NCBI RefSeq assembly: GCF_013034685.1
Contig: NZ_WQGO01000001.1
Coordinates: 558,001 to 622,000, forward strand
Length of the DNA stretch: 64,000 nucleotides
Reading direction: 5' to 3'
DNA from: Ruegeria lacuscaerulensis
GTDB taxonomy: Bacteria; Pseudomonadota; Alphaproteobacteria; Rhodobacterales; Rhodobacteraceae
In this document: one piece after another, positions 5,741 through 15,670 of the stretch
Layout of the letters: each line of letters begins with the position of its first letter
Position numbering within the stretch: the first letter of the stretch is position 1
The notes under the pieces: generated by a model
Seen by the model: only the letters and a program-made list of their open reading frames with translations
The model's database searches: none
What the model was told of the DNA's origin: nothing
Translations under genes and position numbers: made by a program

Positions 5741-7093
5741 TCAATGTTCGCGGAAGGCACGCGACATGCTGTCTGTCACCGGCTTGGCGATATAGGCCGC
5801 GAAAGTGCGTTCCTCGGTCTGAATCATGATCTCGGCTGGCATCCCCGGCGTGGGGATAAAGCCGCGCACGCGGTCAATCTCCTCCGGCGGCAGCGAGATT
5901 CGGGCCAAATAGACCTCTTGCGGGGCACCCGCCGAGTCCTCGAGCAGGGCATCGGCCGAGACGTAAAAGACCTCGCCGCTCAGCACCGGAGTCGTGCGCT
6001 GGTTCAGGGCGACTAGTCGCACGGTGGCGTCCTGTCCCGTCACGACGCTGTCGATCTCGGTTCTCGGGATTTGCGCCTCGATGATCAGGGGCGCGTCGGC
6101 GGGCAGGATTTCGGCGATGGGTTCACCTGTTTCGATCACCCCGCCCGGCGTGTGATAATGCAGCCGCACGACTGTGCCCGTAACCGGCGCGCGCACAACG
6201 GCGCGGTCCAGAACGCTGCGGGCCTGACGGGCTTTTTCGCGGACACTTTCCAGATCGGCCTCGATCACGCCCAGCTCGTCCAATGCCGCCTCGCGGTAGG
6301 CCGACCGCGTTCGGGTGATCTGTTCTTCGTATTTCAGCATCATCTGGTTGACCTCGGCGGTCTCAGCCGCCAACCGCGCCTGCTGACCATCGGCCTCGGC
6401 CTGCACGCGGCGGATCGTGTTTAGCTCGCCTTTGCGGACCAAACCCTTTTCAAACAGCGCCTCTTTGGTCTCATACTCTTCCTGCAAAATGGCCGAGCGC
6501 ACCCGCATACTGTCCAACTGCGCCTCAAACCCGCTGGAGCGGATGCGCAGCGCTTCCATATTGCGCTGAAGCAGAGCTATATCGTTCAGCAGGGTCTTGC
6601 GCGAGACGTCAAAGCTGATCTTCTGGCCATCCAGGATCGTCATCACCTCGACGTCATCGGTGGCCTTGATCAGATCGGGCGAAAATTCCAGCCGCTCGCG
6701 TTCTTCATACTCGGCCAACAGGCGCTGGCTCATCGCCTGAAGGCGGATTTTACGGATGAACAGCTCACGCTCATTGGCCTCGGCAGAGGTCTGGTCCAAT
6801 GTCATCAGGACCTCCCCGGCCTGCACCGATTGACCTTCGATGACCTTGATATCTTCGATGATGCCGCCTTCCAGATGCTGCACGATCTTGTTGCGTCCAG
6901 TGGCGACAAAGCTGCCCTGCGCAATCACGGCGGCAGCCAAGGGCGCGCGAAAGGACCACACGCCGAACCCGCCGAAACAGACAACCAGCAGCACCATTCC
7001 GACGACAACGAATTTGCTGATCGAGCGTGGAACCTCGGCATACCACACCTCGGGGTCTTTGGGATCATTGTTGACGGGCACCAGATCATTCAT
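5741..7093 (-). CDS. type I secretion membrane-fusion protein (HlyD/PrsE family)
   Basis: 450-residue periplasmic adaptor of a type I secretion system. Order of parts: short cytosolic N-terminus, one membrane helix (about residues 27-48), a lipoyl half (IAQGSFVATGRNKIVQHLEGG, then GQSVQAGEVLMTLD), a long heptad-rich helical hairpin (about 100-290), the second lipoyl half (RAPVTGTVVRLHYHTPGGVI) and a C-terminal beta-barrel ending VTDSM. The start ATG overlaps the stop of the ABC exporter (ATGA at 7090-7093), showing translational coupling. It bridges the exporter to a TolC-like outer-membrane channel, which is not encoded nearby and must be supplied from elsewhere. Confidence 0.94.
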   Translation of the reverse strand: MNDLVPVNNDPKDPEVWYAEVPRSISKFVVVGMVLLVVCFGGFGVWSFRAPLAAAVIAQGSFVATGRNKIVQHLEGGIIEDIKVIEGQSVQAGEVLMTLDQTSAEANERELFIRKIRLQAMSQRLLAEYEERERLEFSPDLIKATDDVEVMTILDGQKISFDVSRKTLLNDIALLQRNMEALRIRSSGFEAQLDSMRVRSAILQEEYETKEALFEKGLVRKGELNTIRRVQAEADGQQARLAAETAEVNQMMLKYEEQITRTRSAYREAALDELGVIEADLESVREKARQARSVLDRAVVRAPVTGTVVRLHYHTPGGVIETGEPIAEILPADAPLIIEAQIPRTEIDSVVTGQDATVRLVALNQRTTPVLSGEVFYVSADALLEDSAGAPQEVYLARISLPPEEIDRVRGFIPTPGMPAEIMIQTEERTFAAYIAKPVTDSMSRAFREH

Positions 7094-9324
7094 GTCGCAT
7101 TTCCCTTCTGGCCTTCGATACCGGGCTGTTTACGCGGCCCGTTCAGCTGTTGCAGCACCTGTTCGCGCTGACCGAACAGGGCGACCCGCCCGTCGGTCAG
7201 CAGCATGATCTTGTCGACCGCATTCAGCAAAGTCGGCTTTTGCGTGATCACCACCACCGTGATCTTGTTCGCCTTGGCCTGCGCAATCGCCCGCGCCAAA
7301 GCCTGATCCCCGGCCACGTCCAAGTTCGAGTTCGGCTCGTCCAGAACCACCATACGTGGGTTACCAAAGAACGCGCGCGCCAGCGCGATGCGCTGCTTTT
7401 GACCGCCGGACAGCGGAGAGCCATCGGCGGCGACAACAGTCTCATACCCTTGAGGCAGCGTGGCGATCATGTTGTGCACATCGGCCAGCACGGCGGCGTC
7501 GTGGATTTGCTCATCCGTCGCGTCCTCACGCATGCGGCCGATATTGTCCTTGATGCTGCCGGGAAACAGCTGCACGTCCTGCGGCAAATAACCAATACTC
7601 TCACCGAATTGGCGCGGGTCCCAGTTGCGGATATCCATCAGGTCCAGTCGCACGCTGCCCGACGTTGGCAGGATCGAGCCCACCAGTGTCTTGCCCAGCG
7701 TCGTCTTGCCCGCCCCGGAATTGCCGATAATGGCCAGTGTCTCACCGGGATTGAGCGAAAACCCGATCCCGTTCAGCACCACGCGCTTGGTCCCGCCGGG
7801 CACGTAAAGAAGCCGTTCGACATCCAACCGGCCTTCGGGGCGCGGCAGGCGCAGCTTTTCGTATTGCAACTCGGACTTGGTCAAAAGGGTCTTGATCCGA
7901 CCAAAGGCAGCGCGGGTCAGCAGGAAGGTGTTCCACCCTTCGATGGATCCTTCGATCGGGGCAAAGGCGCGCCCGGCGATGATCGAGGCTGCAATGACCA
8001 TGCCGCCGGTGATCTCACCTTGCAGGGCAAGATACGCGCCCCAGCCCAGAATTGCGATTTGTGTAAGTAAGCGCACCGCGCGCGAAATCGCAGCAAAGAT
8101 GACGTTCCGATCCTGCGCCCGCACCTGCCATGTCAGCGACTGCGCGGTGTCGCGGCCCCAGATGCGCACCGCCTCGGGGATCATCGCCAAAGCGTTGATG
8201 ATCTGACTGTTGCGCGCCATCGAATCCAGATGCTGGTTGGCCATGGACTGAGCCCGGTTCGCCTCGGCAAAGGGCTTGGCGGTCATGCGCTGGTTGATCA
8301 GAGCGATGATCATCAGTAGCAGCGCAGTCACGATCACGATTGTGCCAAGTTGCGGGTGCACAAGGAAAATCATCAGGATGAACAAGGGCGCGAACGGCAC
8401 GTCCAGAAATGAGATCAACGTGCCCGACACCAGAAATCCGCGGACCTGCTGCAAATCGCCCAGCGTCTGATATTCCCGTCCGGTCCCATGCAGCGAGGCA
8501 TGGGCCGCCGCGCTGAGGATGGGCGCACCCAACCGGGCGTTTACCTCGACCGCTGTGCGCATCAGCATGAATCGGCGCACCGCATCAAAGGCTGATTGAA
8601 AGATCACCGCCCCAGCCACAATCGCGGTCAGCATGATCAACGTGTCCAGAGACCGGCTGGTCAATACGCGGTCGCTGATCTGAAACAGGTAGATCGGGAT
8701 GGCCAGGATCAGGATGTTGGTTGCGCAAGTCAGCACCAGCACAAAAGCCAAATTGCGCAAGATTGCCCGCATCGAAATTCGCAGCGTCTGCTGAAAGTCC
8801 TCGGGCGGAGTGCGTTTATGAAAGGTCTGGGGTGGCCCTTTGCCATCCCCACCGCCCTCTTTCCGGAGCGGCAGAGGTTGGTTTGCCTTGGCCTCGATCG
8901 TGGTTCCCAATTGTCCACCGCCTTTTGAGCGATCCGGGGGGGGCGTCCGGTCGGTCTTCTCCCTGGCGGTTTCCGGATCGGGGCCTTTGGCATCGGCCAC
9001 CCCAGCTTCGCGGCCCTTCTGGAGTTTGTCGTTGACGGGCTGCGGAACGTCACGCCGAAGGGATTTCTCGGCGTGACGGAGGAATGTCGTTTCTTGAGCA
9101 CTTTGCGTGCCCTTTGGTGAAGGTTGCGGTTCAGAGACTTTTGGGGCCTTGGGTGGAAACGTCACCGGATTATGCACACGCAGATCCTGGCTTAACCGCA
9201 AGCTCGCCATTTTGGCGGGTTTGGTCACGGGGCCATCTGCAGGGGCCTTGGTCGGGCCACCACCACCGCGTCCGTCCAGCGGGCTGGCGAACAGGGATCG
9301 GCGCGACGAGAACAAAATCGACAT
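7090..9324 (-). CDS. type I secretion ABC exporter with long disordered N-terminal extension
   Basis: About 744 residues, against roughly 570 for PrtD/PrsD-type exporters. The first ~180 residues are Pro/Lys/Gly-rich and without predicted fold (RSKGGGQLG, KEGGGDGKGPP). Then comes a six-helix membrane domain (from about residue 185, YLFQISDRVLTSRS) and an ATPase domain with Walker A GNSGAGKTT, signature LSGGQKQRIALARAF, Walker B RMVVLDEPNSNLD and a histidine-loop region with glutamine (VVVITQKP) where His is usual. The start is ATG 9324; a TTG two codons earlier is also open. It energises export of the two large proteins encoded upstream (inferred from operon order). Confidence 0.93.
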   Translation of the reverse strand: MSILFSSRRSLFASPLDGRGGGGPTKAPADGPVTKPAKMASLRLSQDLRVHNPVTFPPKAPKVSEPQPSPKGTQSAQETTFLRHAEKSLRRDVPQPVNDKLQKGREAGVADAKGPDPETAREKTDRTPPPDRSKGGGQLGTTIEAKANQPLPLRKEGGGDGKGPPQTFHKRTPPEDFQQTLRISMRAILRNLAFVLVLTCATNILILAIPIYLFQISDRVLTSRSLDTLIMLTAIVAGAVIFQSAFDAVRRFMLMRTAVEVNARLGAPILSAAAHASLHGTGREYQTLGDLQQVRGFLVSGTLISFLDVPFAPLFILMIFLVHPQLGTIVIVTALLLMIIALINQRMTAKPFAEANRAQSMANQHLDSMARNSQIINALAMIPEAVRIWGRDTAQSLTWQVRAQDRNVIFAAISRAVRLLTQIAILGWGAYLALQGEITGGMVIAASIIAGRAFAPIEGSIEGWNTFLLTRAAFGRIKTLLTKSELQYEKLRLPRPEGRLDVERLLYVPGGTKRVVLNGIGFSLNPGETLAIIGNSGAGKTTLGKTLVGSILPTSGSVRLDLMDIRNWDPRQFGESIGYLPQDVQLFPGSIKDNIGRMREDATDEQIHDAAVLADVHNMIATLPQGYETVVAADGSPLSGGQKQRIALARAFFGNPRMVVLDEPNSNLDVAGDQALARAIAQAKANKITVVVITQKPTLLNAVDKIMLLTDGRVALFGQREQVLQQLNGPRKQPGIEGQKGNAT

Positions 9325-9361
9325 ACTCAAACTTTCGAAACACTCGTATCAAAGAGGGAAA

Positions 9362-11299
9362 TCAGGCCAGCATGGTTTGCAGACCATCATCGAAGCTTTC
9401 GGCCATCTCGGACGGGGTCATCTTGTTGTGGCCCGGCGCGTTTTCCGAGTTTCCGGGTCCATCCACCGTGTCAATAAGGACAGCGATGGCATCATTTCCG
9501 ATCTCAACATCCAGATCATCGTCCGGCGTGTCGATCAGACTAGCCTGATGCAGCACGAGGTCGGAATATTCGCCCTCACCGGTCATGACCACGGAATCGA
9601 CGCCGGCTTTTACCACACCCGCGGTATTCAGAACCGCATTTCCAGCCCCCAACGCAGAAGCCACTGCACCGGCTTCCCCGTTAAGGTTGATGTCGTCCTG
9701 GTCTTGCAGGATCGTGATCTGTTCAATCGCGTTAACCTGCACCAGATCGCCGTCGATTTTGAGGACCCGGATCTGTTCCATCCCCGCGAAGTCCGGGTTG
9801 TTCAGCAAGGCGTCTTCCAGCGCTTCGGTGTCCATTTCCTCAAGCGGCAGAACACCCGCCAAGCTGGCGTCCAACTCCTCATGCGTGTCCTCGCCCATCG
9901 TGGTCAGCGCCACCTGATTGACAACAAGATTGTCATCATCCTCATCCGGAATGCCACCGTTGATCTCGTCATCATCGAGGAACACGATTGTCTGGTGAAC
10001 GATATCCACCGAAATCATGTCCCCGCCGATCAGGATCACGTCGTAATAGCTGCCAAGTTGCAGAATCTCGGTTACGTTGATCAGAACATTGTCACCCATC
10101 ACGTAAAGGCTGGACGATGCGGTGATCTCGGTTTCGATATGGTCGATATCGGTGGCGTCGATTTCTTGCTGGATGAAATTCGTGACCACCAGATCGCCCG
10201 CAATCCAGGTCACAGCGACCAGAGGATCCTGCCCCTCGGCCGCGACGTTGTCATCCAGCCAATGGGCCTCGTTGCCTTCAACGGTGATGGTCGAGGTTTG
10301 AACGACCATCGTGTCGCTTTGCGCACCGGCATCGCCGGTGTCAATGTCCGACACTACCGCAACCTGACTGACGACGGTCACGTTGACCGATTGCCCGCCC
10401 ACCGCGATCACTGGCGCGTCGACCCAGGCCACTGTGACGGCAACTTCGTTGACGGCCAGATTGCCACCGGTGGAAACGGTATGCCCTTCGCCAAATTCCG
10501 AGTCTTCGGACTGGTCCCACTCGGCGGGAAGAAGTTCTTCGGGCAGATCCTCTGTCTGGTCCTCATCGGATTGATGATGCTGCGGCAGAAGCTCGCTCCA
10601 GTCAGGGGCCTCATCGACATGTTCGCCGTTCACGATGGTACCCATCGCGTCTTCGCCCTGGAACTGATGCACCGTCGCGCCTTCGACCTCGATGGTCTGC
10701 TGTACCTCTTCGACGAGGGCTTGAATGTGTTCAACCGACTGATAATCGGCGATATTCAGAGACGGGGCCGATACCGCGTGCAGCGACTCCGCAACCGCCG
10801 CCAAGGCGTCGCCCTGCGCCATCAAGGTTTCGACATCGCGGAACTCGGCCTGTCCAAGGGTATCATTGTCGCTTAGACGCAGAGTTTGCACGGTATAGGT
10901 CACGGCCGACCCGATCAGTTCGGGGATCAGTTGCGGTTGCAGAACTACGGTCTGAAATGAGATCGCCGGAAGCTGCACGTCGGAAATGAAATCATCGGCA
11001 TTCGGCACCAGACCGAAACCCGGAACCGGGGCCGCCACGGACATCGCCTGCACGGGTGCAGGGGCTATGTCAGTCTGTGGCGCATCCGTTCTGAATGGCA
11101 GGGCATCATATTTCCCCGGATCCAGCTTCAACCCCGCCTTGACCTTGATGACGGTCGCATCTTCAAGCTCTTCCAGTTCCGCCTTGCGCCTGAATGCGAC
11201 AAATTCGTCATACTGATCCCGCCATCGGGCCTGTTCGCTGGTAAGTTCAAATGTTCCAATAAAATGAGCAATCGTTTCACTGATACTGTCGAGCGACAT
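9362..11299 (-). CDS. large acidic repeat protein of the type I secretion operon, unknown function
   Basis: 645 residues, strongly acidic. Residues 1-70 are helical and charged (TSEQARWRDQYDEFVAFRR). From about 290 onward a degenerate beta-type unit recurs roughly every 25-45 residues: G-D-hydrophobic-x-V-N-x-hydrophobic-x-Q-x-hydrophobic, e.g. GDLVQVNAIEQITIL, GDMISVDIVHQTIVF, GDLVVTNFIQQEI, GDNVLINVTEILQL. No RTX nonapeptides and no signal peptide. Residues 142-154 share the motif LSDND-x-LG-x-A-x-x-R with the upstream gene product. GGAAAGGA precedes the ATG. Position between exporter and Gly-rich protein suggests a type I substrate or a handling partner for one (inference). Confidence 0.85.
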   Translation of the reverse strand: MSLDSISETIAHFIGTFELTSEQARWRDQYDEFVAFRRKAELEELEDATVIKVKAGLKLDPGKYDALPFRTDAPQTDIAPAPVQAMSVAAPVPGFGLVPNADDFISDVQLPAISFQTVVLQPQLIPELIGSAVTYTVQTLRLSDNDTLGQAEFRDVETLMAQGDALAAVAESLHAVSAPSLNIADYQSVEHIQALVEEVQQTIEVEGATVHQFQGEDAMGTIVNGEHVDEAPDWSELLPQHHQSDEDQTEDLPEELLPAEWDQSEDSEFGEGHTVSTGGNLAVNEVAVTVAWVDAPVIAVGGQSVNVTVVSQVAVVSDIDTGDAGAQSDTMVVQTSTITVEGNEAHWLDDNVAAEGQDPLVAVTWIAGDLVVTNFIQQEIDATDIDHIETEITASSSLYVMGDNVLINVTEILQLGSYYDVILIGGDMISVDIVHQTIVFLDDDEINGGIPDEDDDNLVVNQVALTTMGEDTHEELDASLAGVLPLEEMDTEALEDALLNNPDFAGMEQIRVLKIDGDLVQVNAIEQITILQDQDDINLNGEAGAVASALGAGNAVLNTAGVVKAGVDSVVMTGEGEYSDLVLHQASLIDTPDDDLDVEIGNDAIAVLIDTVDGPGNSENAPGHNKMTPSEMAESFDDGLQTMLA

Positions 11300-11353
11300 A
11301 ACACTGTTCCTTTCCCCATCCCGGCCAGAAATTTCCGTTTTGGGTTAAGTTGG

Positions 11354-11422
11354 GCTGAGGCCGCACCATGCGGCCTCAGCATGTTTTTGCCGGAGATCGT
11401 GGGGGTTTAGCCGATCTCCGGC
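11354..11422. promoter_or_regulatory. two tandem strong hairpins between the two large secretion-operon genes
   Basis: Two perfect inverted repeats lie in the 135-base spacer. 11354-11380: a 12-bp stem GCTGAGGCCGCA / TGCGGCCTCAGC with a 3-nt loop. 11389-11422: an 11-bp stem GCCGGAGATCG / CGATCTCCGGC with a 12-nt loop. In the operon's (- strand) transcript they follow the stop of the Gly-rich gene by about 12 bases and no U-run follows. They therefore look less like a full terminator than like an mRNA-stabilising or partial-termination element that would keep the first gene's message more abundant than the exporter's. Confidence 0.6.
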
Positions 11423-11434
11423 TGGGACACCGGC

Positions 11435-13834
11435 TTATACGTCGGTATCGTCGCTGGAGTAGGACGAAGTCATCGATCCACCAACCATGGTCGTATCGAC
11501 CGAGTTGCCAAGCACGTTGGCACCCATGACGATCGACTGGTTGAAGGCCGTGGTGTCCACAACTGCGGCAGACGAAGCATAGGATTCACCCGAAACGATG
11601 CCGTCACCAGCATTGTTCGAGCCCCAGACACCCGCGTTGCCACCGGTGCCACCTGCGCCTGAGTTCGCACCCGAAGCATCGCCACCAGTGACTATCCCAC
11701 CAGCTGTGTGGCCGGTAGTCGCCCAACCGATTGCTTCACCGCTGGTGCCGCCCATACCGGCCCCGGCGCCGCCGCCGCCGCCAAAGCCTGAGGTCGCCGA
11801 CCCGTCCGTCGAACCGGATGCATCAGAGGTGGCATCATTGTCCGAAGACGCGTCACCACCGTATCCGGCAATGGATTCGGCAAGACTGTCCGCCGAGCCA
11901 TCTGTGTCTGCCTGCGCAAACACATCCACCAGACCACCATCTCCGGCCGTGTTCATCGCATCGGCCGAACCGGTGCCCGAACCATCCGACGTCGCACCTT
12001 GCTGGATCGCGCCGCCACCGCCGCCGAAACCATCGGCGGTCGAGGTGCCGGTTCCGGTGCCGCTGGCCGAGCCGTCGGTGTCGTTTGTGCCACCTGCTCC
12101 GCCATCGCCACTGGTGTTCTGCGAGTTGCTGGCCGACCCGTTCACGTCACCCGGAGACTGGGTGATGTTCGGACCGGTTGTCGCCTGATCGCCGACACCC
12201 TGCGCGCCGGCGTTCGCTCCGGCTGTACCGCCTGTCGCGCTACCGCCGGTGCCATCGCCACCCGAGCCGAATCCGCCGGTGCCGTCGCCACCCGAGCCAA
12301 AGCCTCCGGTTCCGTCGCCGCCAGATCCAAACGCGCCGGTTCCGTCACCGCCAGTTCCCGGATTGCCGCCATTGGTGTCGCCACCGCCGTTGCCGGCACC
12401 GGCCTGACCTGCGTTCAGCCCGGACAGACCGTTTTGCTGGTTCAGAGCTGCAAGCGCTGCATCGACCTGACCGGAAGTGCCACCAGTGCCTTCAGCACCC
12501 GTGCCTGCACCACCCGTGCCGTTGCCAGCATCACCGGTACCGCCCATACCTTCTGCGCCGTTGCCCTGGGCCCCAGAGCCTTCGGCACCCGCGCCTTCGC
12601 CACCATCGGCATCAGCGTCGCTGCCTGCCAAGCTGCCAGCCAGACCCAGACCGACATTTCCGGCCGCCGCATCGTTGGCGTCGGTGTCGCTGCTGCTGCC
12701 ATTGCCGGCCTGACCATCCGCATCCGCATCACCGTCGCCACCGGCTGCGCCTTGCGCGGACGAGTCGTTCGCGCCAAGACCCGCGCCAAGCGCCTCTGCG
12801 ACCGAAGCATTGTTGCCACCGGAAGACTGGCCATCATTGTCGGCATTCGACAGGCCCAGCCCCAGACCCAGCCCAAACGAGCTTGCGTCTCCGCCTTCAC
12901 CGCTGGTGCCGTCTGCGTCGGTGTCGGATGAACCTGTGTTGCTTGCTCCAGAGATGCTACCGGCGTCTCCGCCTTCGCCGCCACTGCTGCTGCCGTTGGA
13001 CTCGGCACCCGACACACCGACACCCAGGCCGATGTTGGATGCTGAACCGGTCGAGCCGCCGTCACCACCAACGCCTGTACCATCCGCGTTGCCGGTCAGA
13101 CCACCAAAGGCCAGCGCGTCAGCGCCATGGGTTTGGGCACTTGCCGCGCCGCCATCGGTGCTGCCACCGCTGCCAGAGTTGCCACCATCGGTTGAAGAGC
13201 CGATGCCTTCATGGGCCGTCGCGGTGCCACCATGAGCATTGCCGCTCTGGTCAAATTCGCCTTCGTTGCGAACGGCGGCCGAGCCCAGATGGTCATTGTC
13301 GGACAAGTTTGCGACCTGGCTGCTGATCGAAGACATGTCATTGCCTTCACCGCTCAGGTCGATGTCCAGATTCAGGTCGTCGCCCGGGTCATAGTCCATA
13401 TCGCCTGCAACGGTGATGACATCGCCCAGCTCAGCCGAACCTGACGCGTCAATATCGACAGTGTCATTGTCTTTCGGCAAGCCTTCTCCGTCGCCGAAGT
13501 CGATCGTGACCGAGTTGCTGTTCGAGTTGTCATTGTCGCCATTGCTTTGCGACTGACCCTGACCTTGATCTTGGCCCTGGCCCTGATCCTGGCCTTGGGC
13601 TTGGTCCTGACCCTGACCATTTTCAACAGACGTCGCCTGAGCTTGCGCCTGGTCCTGACCCTGGCCCTGTTCGTTGTCGACATCATTGTCGACATCCGTC
13701 TCTTGCGACGTCAGGTCAGCATCAACATAGGCGTCATCCACATGGATATCTGCGTCGATTGGCGCGATGATCGTATCCACGTTCACCTCGTCAATATCGG
13801 TAATGCTGTTATGGGGTTGTTGACGTTTTGACAT
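11435..13834 (-). CDS. Gly/Asp/Gln-rich low-complexity protein, probable type I secretion substrate
   Basis: 799 residues. Residues 1-55 are acidic (DADIHVDDAYVDADL); about 55-97 is a Gln/Gly/Asp tract of QGQDQ and GQAQ units; about 100-170 is Asn/Ser/Asp-rich; the rest is dominated by Gly, Ser, Ala, Thr and Asp, including a 10-residue tandem repeat GGDGTGGFGS. The C-terminus (MTSSYSSDDTDV) is Ser/Asp-rich, as in many type I substrates. There are no hydrophobic domains, no cysteine-rich parts and no canonical GGxGxD nonapeptide arrays. ATG 13834 is preceded by GGAAA; a GTG four codons upstream overlaps that site. A secreted matrix, adhesive or ion-binding polymer is the best guess; function unproven. 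Confidence 0.82.
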   Translation of the reverse strand: MSKRQQPHNSITDIDEVNVDTIIAPIDADIHVDDAYVDADLTSQETDVDNDVDNEQGQGQDQAQAQATSVENGQGQDQAQGQDQGQGQDQGQGQSQSNGDNDNSNSNSVTIDFGDGEGLPKDNDTVDIDASGSAELGDVITVAGDMDYDPGDDLNLDIDLSGEGNDMSSISSQVANLSDNDHLGSAAVRNEGEFDQSGNAHGGTATAHEGIGSSTDGGNSGSGGSTDGGAASAQTHGADALAFGGLTGNADGTGVGGDGGSTGSASNIGLGVGVSGAESNGSSSGGEGGDAGSISGASNTGSSDTDADGTSGEGGDASSFGLGLGLGLSNADNDGQSSGGNNASVAEALGAGLGANDSSAQGAAGGDGDADADGQAGNGSSSDTDANDAAAGNVGLGLAGSLAGSDADADGGEGAGAEGSGAQGNGAEGMGGTGDAGNGTGGAGTGAEGTGGTSGQVDAALAALNQQNGLSGLNAGQAGAGNGGGDTNGGNPGTGGDGTGAFGSGGDGTGGFGSGGDGTGGFGSGGDGTGGSATGGTAGANAGAQGVGDQATTGPNITQSPGDVNGSASNSQNTSGDGGAGGTNDTDGSASGTGTGTSTADGFGGGGGAIQQGATSDGSGTGSADAMNTAGDGGLVDVFAQADTDGSADSLAESIAGYGGDASSDNDATSDASGSTDGSATSGFGGGGGAGAGMGGTSGEAIGWATTGHTAGGIVTGGDASGANSGAGGTGGNAGVWGSNNAGDGIVSGESYASSAAVVDTTAFNQSIVMGANVLGNSVDTTMVGGSMTSSYSSDDTDV
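12248..12367. repeat. 30-bp tandem repeat, four units, inside the Gly-rich gene
   Basis: Units at 12248-12277, 12278-12307 and 12308-12337 plus a degenerate fourth to 12367. On the - strand they encode the decapeptide GGDGTGGFGS with small changes. In-frame minisatellite of a length that preserves the frame, so copy number could vary between strains. Confidence 0.8.
13547..13672. repeat. six-base periodic tract coding Gln/Gly/Asp/Ala
   Basis: A stretch of imperfect 6- and 12-base units (variants of CCCTGACCCTGGCC on the + strand) that codes QGQDQ/AQAQ/GQGQ near the N-terminus of the Gly-rich protein. The periodic dipeptide pattern with alternating Gln suggests an extended, polar spacer. Confidence 0.7.
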
Positions 13835-14427
13835 ATCAATTTCCACTTATTAAGCGCACTGACCGTCACTCTTTCAAAAACGGTTACGGGCGCGGTTGAA
13901 ACAAACAGCGCACTCGCGCAAAACCTGCGCGGATGCGTATTTCACAGTGAGATTGTCCTCCACCCTCCTTTCCCCGGCTTAGCCGGTCCTGCATCTGCTA
14001 AAGTCGTTCGCGGAAATGCGCGATTCGCAGACACGTTCGGATCTTTCGCCCCGTTAATTGGAGCCGTTCCATGGTTGCAGGAGGAAACCAGTCTGAATAG
14101 CTAGCCGGAAGCACTAGAACGGGTAATCACCTGATTCGGATTGATTATTTCCAAATCACGAACAATGCGCGACTTTTTCGGTTGCTGGTTTTTTAGCCAA
14201 TCGCATATCGAGAAAACTCATTAAATTGCCTCTACTTAAGCGGGTGAAACGCCCTCAATCCTAAACTTAAGTTCTAGAACTGTTTGCGCGTTAAGGACCG
14301 TGCAACCAGGAAATTTGCACTTTTCCCTATAGTCTGCACCGAAAGTGCGTTAATGTTCAGTTAATATTTTTCGAAGTGCCAGTTTGCTATTACGCCGCAT
14401 AGCGGTGCAGGTTTTGACAAGGGGGGA
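13835..14427. other. long divergent regulatory region between secretion operon and LuxR regulator
   Basis: About 590 bases without a convincing gene. It holds a perfect 12-bp palindrome AGTTCTAGAACT at 14270-14281 and a CCGGCT/AGCCGG repeat at 13974-13986. AT-rich stretches occur near 14140-14230 and 14345-14375, and GTTAATG-type sequences sit just before the regulator. Its size and placement fit promoters for both directions and binding sites for one or more regulators, perhaps the LuxR-type protein itself. No -35/-10 pair could be called with confidence. Confidence 0.5.
14270..14281. promoter_or_regulatory. 12-bp perfect palindrome, candidate operator
   Basis: AGTTCTAGAACT, about 150 bases before the LuxR-type gene and 435 before the Gly-rich gene. 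A dimeric regulator could bind it. Evidence is the symmetry and the location only. Confidence 0.3.
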
Positions 14428-15180
14428 ATGATGAGCATTCCGTTTCGGGACAATGCTGCGCAAAACCAATTTGGTTTTGACGAATTCTCAGTAAATTTTA
14501 TTGGTAAAGAGCTTTTCTACTCGGACCAGACCCTGACGGGTGTTGAAACAGAGTTTGGTGTCACCACACACCGCTACGATTCAATCTCAGCCCTGCCGAC
14601 ATATGGCGACCCTACCACCGGCCCCGGTAGGATCGTGATCGTCGATCAGATGATTCTGGAAGATCTTCTGGCCCGTCCCAGACATTATCGCGATTGCGTG
14701 GGCAGCGGCAGCTTGGCCTACGCGTATCGAAAAGAGGAATCTGCCCGCTTTCTGTTTGAGCAATGGGACCGGACTCGCCATGGAGATATCGGTTTTCTGC
14801 CAATGAATGTCGGTCCCGATGTCTGGCGCGCGATCCTTCGATTGTTGCTGCATGAGGAACTATACCTGCCCGGCTTTCTTGCAGACAGCGTCTCCAACTT
14901 GCAAAGCCCACCCAAGCAGCACGCAGGCTCTAGGCCTGCCGCGCCTGAGCCGCACCCGCTTTATTCCAAACTGACCCGGAGGGAAAAGCAGGTCCTGCAA
15001 CAGGTATCAAAAGGGCACAGTAACAAGATCATCGCGGCCAATCTTGGTATAACTGAACACACGGTTAAGTTGCACATGCACAATGTCGCCGGAAAGATCG
15101 GCGTCAGCAACAGAACCGCCGCCGCACAGTTCTTTTTCGAAGTCGCCCCGGACGAAGCCCATGAACTTGCCAGCGACTGA
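14428..15180 (+). CDS. LuxR-family transcriptional regulator (CsgD/VpsT-like)
   Basis: 250 residues. The C-terminal ~65 residues are a GerE/LuxR helix-turn-helix (LTRREKQVLQQVSKGHSNKIIA, then LGITEHTVKLHMHNVAGKIGV). The N-terminal ~170 residues look like a degenerate receiver fold (GRIVIVDQMILEDLLARP) without a clear phospho-acceptor set, as in CsgD/VpsT-type biofilm regulators. The VpsT c-di-GMP motif W[FLM][TS]R is not seen. Two adjacent ATGs (14428, 14431) follow a GGGGGG run; the second has the better spacing. Divergent orientation to the type I secretion operon makes it the likely regulator of that operon (inference). Confidence 0.88.
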   Translation: MMSIPFRDNAAQNQFGFDEFSVNFIGKELFYSDQTLTGVETEFGVTTHRYDSISALPTYGDPTTGPGRIVIVDQMILEDLLARPRHYRDCVGSGSLAYAYRKEESARFLFEQWDRTRHGDIGFLPMNVGPDVWRAILRLLLHEELYLPGFLADSVSNLQSPPKQHAGSRPAAPEPHPLYSKLTRREKQVLQQVSKGHSNKIIAANLGITEHTVKLHMHNVAGKIGVSNRTAAAQFFFEVAPDEAHELASD

Positions 15181-15670
15181 GGATTTCGAAACCCGCTTTG
15201 ACCGTCTTATCCTTTTGGTCGGCAAGCTGAACTATATGTGGACCAATACAGAAAGCCTGCTGATCCACCTGATCGCCGGGCTGAGCGGAACCAACAAGGA
15301 TGTCGCGGTCATCATTTTTCTGACCCTCAACACCACCCGTGCACGCATTGATCTGGTGGAACGGCTGGCAAAGATGGACGGTCGCCCCCCCGATCTGAGG
15401 GATGCGATTCTCGAGCACACCCAGCGCTTGTCGAAACTTTCGGGCATTCGCAACAAGTACAATCACTGCATCTATTCCTTCGACCCTGACAGTGGAAATC
15501 CCAAGACGATTCTTATGCGGATTTCAGACCGGAAAACCGACATCAAGCTGGGACGCGAAGACACCGTTGACGCCGCAGCGCTGACCGAGATTGAAAGCGT
15601 AGTGAAAAAACTCTCGGACGCCAACCGCGATATCTGGCAGTTGATCACAAGGTTAGGCTTTCCGGTCTAA
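15161..15670 (+). CDS. small helical protein with HEPN-like RNxxxH motif, unknown function
   Basis: 169 residues from ATG 15161, overlapping the end of the LuxR-type gene by 20 bases, so translation is probably coupled. Mostly alpha-helical: a long amphipathic first helix (FDRLILLVGKLNYMW), another around VAVIIFLTLNTTRARIDLVERL, then LSGIRNKYNHCIYSF. The segment RNKYNH fits the R-x4-H motif (often RNxxxH) of HEPN domains, which is the RNase active site in many toxins and defence proteins. The resemblance is a short motif plus helical context, so a plain structural protein remains possible. I do not recognise the family by name. Confidence 0.72.
   Translation: MNLPATEDFETRFDRLILLVGKLNYMWTNTESLLIHLIAGLSGTNKDVAVIIFLTLNTTRARIDLVERLAKMDGRPPDLRDAILEHTQRLSKLSGIRNKYNHCIYSFDPDSGNPKTILMRISDRKTDIKLGREDTVDAAALTEIESVVKKLSDANRDIWQLITRLGFPV

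Follow-up and report, generated by a model that had tools for sequence, protein, structure and literature searches.

Type I secretion systems of the PrtDEF/RTX kind, in which a PrtD-family ABC exporter and an HlyD-family adaptor adjoin their substrates, are the closest described relatives of the locus analysed here, and RTX proteins carry uncleaved C-terminal signals according to the available part of one account (PMC3034196). Within Rhodobacterales, BapA of Paracoccus denitrificans is a type I dependent surface protein needed for attachment, as far as the accessible portion of its description goes (PMC13235738). On the regulatory side, VpsT and CsgD combine a LuxR-type DNA-binding domain with a receiver-like domain. 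Curli and Fap fibres invite comparison by analogy, through regular Asn/Gln repeats and a matrix regulator of the CsgD kind. Here we set beside these systems a six-gene unit from the 4.6-Mb genome of Ruegeria lacuscaerulensis, located in a window of 64,000 nt (the whole stretch of DNA that was analysed, to which coordinates refer unless another locus is named). A search of titles and abstract openings in the open-access literature found no description of this unit.

Four of the genes occupy one strand (-) in the list of open reading frames of the window: an HlyD-type membrane fusion protein (5741..7093), a PrtD-type ABC exporter (7090..9330) whose gene overlaps that of HlyD by four bases, an acidic beta-repeat protein of 645 aa (P645; 9362..11299), and a Gly/Asp/Gln-rich protein (GLY; 11435..13834) of 799 aa if translation begins at the ATG or 803 aa if it begins at a GTG at 13846. 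A LuxR-type regulator with a GerE domain diverges from them on the opposite strand (14428..15180, +), and its 3' end overlaps a sixth gene, ORF195 (15161..15670, +), for which the frame opens at 15083, the likely start is 15161, and the likely product is 169 aa. Five of these genes had been named in a preliminary description based on the sequence alone, and the exporter, P645, GLY and the regulator lie about where it placed them. The HlyD gene is equally real, at a position outside the 7090..15180 interval given for the operon; the reported gap of 590 bases between LuxR and GLY measures 593 bases from the GLY ATG; and ORF195, a conserved member, had been overlooked. Homologues of P645 and GLY are conserved in 17 other genomes, with identities of 48-65% for P645 in 16 other Ruegeria genomes, 33% for P645 in one genome of another genus, and 47-75% for GLY across the same 17, so both open reading frames are more than chance.

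The exporter and adaptor belong to the families found in PrtDEF/RTX systems, with the ABC protein scoring 696 bits against TIGR01842 (PrtD; cut-off 510) and the HlyD protein 361 bits against TIGR01843 (cut-off 209). As in those systems, the candidate substrates adjoin the exporter and have conserved C-termini, which are candidate secretion signals only. Unlike them, the unit pairs its exporter with two non-RTX candidates in which no catalytic domain was detected, and adds a divergent LuxR regulator, ORF195 and, at the N-terminus of the ABC protein, a long extension. This extension covers about 186 residues in the window (8773-9330) and 55-372 aa across 77 of 77 homologues, as estimated from the first start codon. 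Three further PrtD-type exporters over the cut-off, on contigs C12 and C29 of the same genome, lack it by frame length (597-613 residues vs 752 for the ABC protein of the unit). The idea that the extension is a basic arm suited to acidic substrates was rejected, with a pI above 8 in only 48 of 77 homologues and below 6 in 14. A candidate TolC-family channel is encoded outside the window, as the one over the cut-off among three matches in the genome. BapA, by the available part of its description rather than by sequence, differs as one adhesin from the GLY/P645 pair found here.

Homologues of P645 were found in 46 of 101 genomes, comprising 45 of 54 Ruegeria genomes (the source genome included; the other nine gave no match) and one of 47 others. 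We took 34 of the 45 further P645-positive genomes for neighbourhood comparison, and every one of these relatives contained all six genes (34/34). A pattern scan of named genomes, for which the best 80 of 105 relatives were kept, yielded 78 loci from genera that we assign to Rhodobacterales (Roseovarius, Sulfitobacter, Paracoccus, Jannaschia, and others) and to Hyphomicrobiales (Ensifer, Mesorhizobium, Aminobacter, Devosia, and others). By thresholds set in this analysis, the six genes are complete in 67 of these 78; the 11 incomplete loci are five cut upstream and two cut downstream by contig ends, locus L109 of Ruegeria sp. ANG-R, and three with sufficient sequence (two Ensifer, one Aquamicrobium) in which ORF195 is retained and LuxR went undetected. 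GLY is present in 75 of the 78, the others being L109, where it lies beyond the distance filter, and two loci cut by contig ends. Among eight further loci chosen for having P645, four of them distant, all eight encode P645, ABC, HlyD, ORF195 and a GLY-type C-terminus (at least 20 bits), and six encode LuxR, one at only 37 bits. The range of the unit takes in no fewer than two orders of Alphaproteobacteria. The neighbourhood survey proposed as a check in the preliminary description shows that the type I exporter, its pair of non-RTX companions and the LuxR-type gene facing away from them travel as a conserved unit.

Profile searches recovered P645 from 26 of 295 genomes of the family (25 of 294 genera) and from 8 of 398 genomes of the phylum, all eight belonging to the class of the window; a narrower profile recovered it from 2 of 385 genomes of the class. 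P645 also occurs on 32 of 72,556 plasmid records, and a homologue lies on a Paracoccus denitrificans replicon. Across the 30 non-Ruegeria loci that encode all five proteins compared, pairwise distances correlate at 0.67-0.81 (none of 500 permutations reached any of these values), a co-variation that may reflect common, vertical descent alone. Neighbouring rhodanese and esterase genes were considered as further members and rejected: present in 29 and 31 of the 34 relatives, they are absent from the single locus of another genus in that set, and the 25 clusters that recur most often beside non-Ruegeria loci, judged from sequence starts, did not include them.

Several loci depart from the common arrangement. 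In L109, P645 is split into two open reading frames (at 10001 and 10840 of that locus; 272 and 524 aa). In KLH11 (L106, 5552-6820), LuxR and ORF195 form a single frame of 422 aa, either a natural fusion or a frameshift, and in one Paracoccus locus ORF195 and LuxR lie at the opposite side of the unit. In genome G246 (L172, 7012-9006) the single GLY gives way to a pair of Gln-rich genes in tandem that have a GLY-type C-terminus, and genome G626 (L174, 8609-17389) encodes very large forms of 1250 aa (P645) and 1632 aa (GLY).

The two large proteins were put forward as novel, and this stands for the libraries searched: searches of Pfam and NCBIfam up to E 0.1 found no match for either, neither had a convincing match in PHROGs, and PDB sequences gave P645 no match at or below E 0.1. 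Both are very acidic (median pI 4.05 for each, the floor of the method) and Cys-poor (Cys in 18 of 79 P645 and 8 of 76 GLY proteins), and by eye neither carries an N-terminal export signal. Membership of the RTX family is ruled out for the proteins of the window, as previously claimed, with 0 strict repeats in either. The nonapeptide GGxGxDxUx is likewise missing from all 79 P645 proteins, and strict nonapeptides number none in 60 of 76 GLY proteins, one in 13, and two in 3. Complete GLY proteins range from 320 to 1433 aa (median 773, n=73), with Gly contents of 6-32%. Despite this varying length and composition, a C-terminal unit (11438..11668, -; alignment A6, 23 loci) persists in 75 of 75, a count that holds partly by construction because genes were selected by part of that unit. 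A search of the source genome up to E 1 recovered this unit once, and it matches the third repeat of P645 over 33 columns at 42% identity (hhalign E 1.6e-4, probability 51% in a one-to-one comparison).

P645 is itself built of repeats. The pattern Q-x5-D-x-D, which was picked after viewing the alignment, occurs five times in the P645 of the window (138, 312, 378, 436, and 527), a number reached in 0 of 2000 shuffles (mean 0.45), and on average 4.8 times (range 2-6) in 79 homologues; [GDS]-x-N-x3-N occurs three times in the same protein, as many as in only 3 of 2000 shuffles. The AlphaFold model (mean pLDDT 78) is mostly confident from about residue 130 to 592 and rich in beta strands, with a helix at the N-terminus and a disordered tail. 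In the last eight residues (consensus D-V-M-Q-S-M-L-A), Asp occupies position -8 in 52 and Leu position -2 in 50 of 54 homologues. The structure prediction called for earlier has thus provided a beta-rich body, without a significant fold match.

Between GLY and P645 lies a GC-rich hairpin (11354..11380, -). Among 75 such gaps, 74 contain a stem of at least nine pairs, which beats the best of 20 shuffles in 58, and folding against dinucleotide shuffles gives z < -2 in 72 and < -3 in 51; in the exception, L126, the gap is shortened by the choice of start codon and the hairpin appears once it is extended. When pair positions were numbered from the loop in 34 hand-picked hairpins, 10 of 12 varied among four to six base-pair types (read from each predicted fold, where only standard pairs can appear). 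The structure rather than the sequence seems to be kept. A T-run follows in 9 of 75. The hairpin is compatible with a message stabiliser or a partial terminator, and it could be a terminator. The puf operon offers an analogy, and a GC-rich hairpin placed after GLY suggests that GLY is made in excess over P645.

A smaller hairpin, CGGCT-N-AGCCG or a near form, lies in the GLY leader (13974..13986, -) and is found in 27 of the 38 intergenic regions compared within Ruegeria, where shuffles gave at most 2; it was not among the repeats listed for 31 other loci. The divergent promoter region that contains it (13847..14427) has conserved blocks among the 38 Ruegeria sequences. A shared LuxR operator was sought and rejected, since inverted repeats stand out only within the genus: in the 31 other loci the best palindrome is shared by 3, against at most 2 after shuffling, and the best 7-mer by 14, against at most 10.

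The regulator had been described as CsgD/VpsT-like. Its profile (62-240) aligns end to end with VpsT (3kln, residues 46-213; E 1.1e-20) over both the LuxR helix-turn-helix and the receiver-like domain of such regulators, whereas most of the other of the 49 hits cover the helix-turn-helix alone. At the aligned place, W[FLM][TS]R, which we take to be the c-di-GMP motif of VpsT, is found in 0 of 31 members; the WLTR of VpsT aligns with Y-L-P-x, and only one of 31 has Arg in the place of R134. The change R134A disrupts c-di-GMP binding by VpsT, according to the part of the study available (PMC3359988). The CsgD equivalog NF007505 scores 50 bits against a cut-off of 250. Because both domains match and the motif is absent, VpsT-like is a fair label for architecture, not for signal.

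ORF195 is present in all 34 relatives, in 73 of the 78 named loci (contig ends cut short the remaining five) and in all eight further loci. Its AlphaFold model (pLDDT 87.5) is mainly helical, and the conserved R-N-x3-H (RNKYNH in the window) is almost invariant, with Asn and His invariant and Arg in at least 90% of 42 members. The protein of the window has no Pfam match and no significant Foldseek match; NCBIfam gave it nothing over a cut-off, and PHROGs and PDB sequences nothing convincing. HEPN domains are four-helix bundles with an Rx4-6H motif, and ORF195 recalls HEPN RNases in its motif and helices; no HEPN family is among the Pfam matches of the 42 members. PF13556 (PucR helix-turn-helix) matches six of the 42 (best E 0.0009) and is the best of the scattered Pfam matches of other members, which we took as chance; ORF195 may yet bind DNA. 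Five of 385 genomes of the class encode ORF195 homologues, and only two of these (the source genome and G246) have P645, which indicates that the family is wider than the unit. We read ORF195 as a working part because it is present where LuxR was not found and moves with the unit, most likely as a cytosolic partner of the substrates.

Evidence for a matrix role, which the preliminary description had proposed, is indirect and comes from flanking genes. On three Sulfitobacter plasmids (of five Sulfitobacter matches viewed), exopolysaccharide genes follow LuxR-ORF195 at the 3' side on the same strand, encoding a UDP-glucuronate decarboxylase, GalE, a glycosyltransferase and a glycosyl hydrolase. 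A Litoreibacter flank encodes GalE over the cut-off and a glycosyltransferase with CelA-like matches below it, and flanks of exopolysaccharide type occur, by similarity, in Lentibacter and a Roseobacter MAG. However, no such genes adjoin the locus on a Cereibacter plasmid, and they do not recur elsewhere. The exopolysaccharide neighbours are suggestive only. Across 40 non-Ruegeria loci the most frequent flanking genes, those for outer-membrane-factor homologues, are found in 8 (two were scanned, both NodT over the cut-off); ABC ATPases number 7, and sugar-nucleotide enzymes 4. In L132 (15949-21198), and similarly in L131, a frame of 1749 aa with tandem-95 and RTX-like matches lies downstream of HlyD.

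The interpretation offered earlier is thus partly supported, and we consider it probable that the locus is a type I module delivering a major filler, GLY, and a minor beta-repeat partner, P645, to an extracellular matrix. The LuxR-type regulator would turn on the divergent operon, and the hairpin after GLY would hold GLY message in excess, with GLY as the abundant product and P645 as the lesser one. Both proteins would remain unfolded in the cytosol, perhaps with the help of ORF195, until their conserved C-termini guide them to the PrtD-type ABC/HlyD pair, which threads them through a TolC channel encoded elsewhere. Such threading agrees with the narrow channel of AaPrtD, for which unfolded cargo is suggested in the accessible part of the report (PMC8277102). 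Outside the cell, P645 would fold into its beta-repeat body with Asn, Gln, Asp and Gly regularly placed; the repeat-like C-terminal unit of GLY may dock on P645 or on other GLY chains, and the long variable GLY body would fill a hydrated coat, beside exopolysaccharide in some species. Export of the large proteins and the excess of GLY are the strongest of these inferences, and the fibre model considered below is the weakest. Against the module stand the restriction of exopolysaccharide genes to some loci, the lack of a fold match backing an adhesin or fibre, a hairpin that could terminate transcription, and the missing c-di-GMP motif; LuxR went undetected in the three named loci and in two of the eight further ones, the GLY unit aligns with P645 at only 51% probability in a one-to-one comparison, co-variation is explicable by common descent, and nine of 54 Ruegeria genomes gave no P645 match.

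It is unlikely, in our estimation, that GLY and P645 are instead released as free exoproteins, for example to serve as public goods, to bind ions or to act on other cells as effectors. Release is possible for type I substrates; RTX-like proteins that are acidic and poor in K/R occur in Roseobacter exoproteomes according to the available part of one study (PMC3933643); and Asp-rich repeats could bind Ca2+. Yet profile searches found no enzyme domain in either protein, and the free length of GLY around a fixed C-terminal unit, together with the exopolysaccharide neighbours, would suit a structural role better.

A functional-amyloid-like fibre of curli/Fap type fed by type I secretion, nucleated by P645 and polymerised from GLY, is a special form of the matrix module, so that the odds of the two overlap; taken by itself it seems improbable. 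N, Q, D and G make up most of the invariant positions of P645 (54 homologues) and stand in register, GLY carries one repeat-like unit, and Foldseek places FapC first and second and CsgA sixth among PDB matches to the P645 model. None of these is significant, though (best FapC, E 0.038, probability 0.03, TM 0.04), and BFVD gave no match at E 0.001 or better. Several model strands run to about 20 residues, longer than the strands of curli, and the unit differs from curli and Fap in lacking sequence or significant fold matches to them and in having a type I exporter in place of their pathway. Nor do we give much credence to a scheme in which GLY alone is exported while P645, bound to the membrane or the exporter, serves as an accessory to anchor or measure it: the P645 N-terminal helix is conserved, its conserved tail sits on a disordered linker, and its gene lies between GLY and the exporter in the loci examined, but a beta-repeat body with N, Q and D in register would be unusual for a cytosolic accessory.

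Returning to the matrix module, we tentatively raise a bolder and rather doubtful version, in which filler GLY and scaffold P645 would be co-secreted as a new class of extracellular protein polymer, joined by a shared GxNxxxN unit, with type I secretion doing the work of the curli/Fap pathways and ORF195 representing a type I secretion partner of a new kind. Should the matrix module itself prove true, marine and soil Alphaproteobacteria would share an undescribed matrix system, and one easily overlooked. Standard proteomics could easily miss GLY because of its few basic residues and few or no suitable peptides: the GLY of the window has four basic residues and zero tryptic peptides of 7-35 residues, and of 73 GLY proteins six yield none and 35 no more than two. 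A Phaeobacter RTX protein posed the same difficulty, as the available part of that study reports (PMC3933643). The locus offers as targets two new protein families, a seemingly shared conserved unit, and an unexplained helical partner, ORF195.
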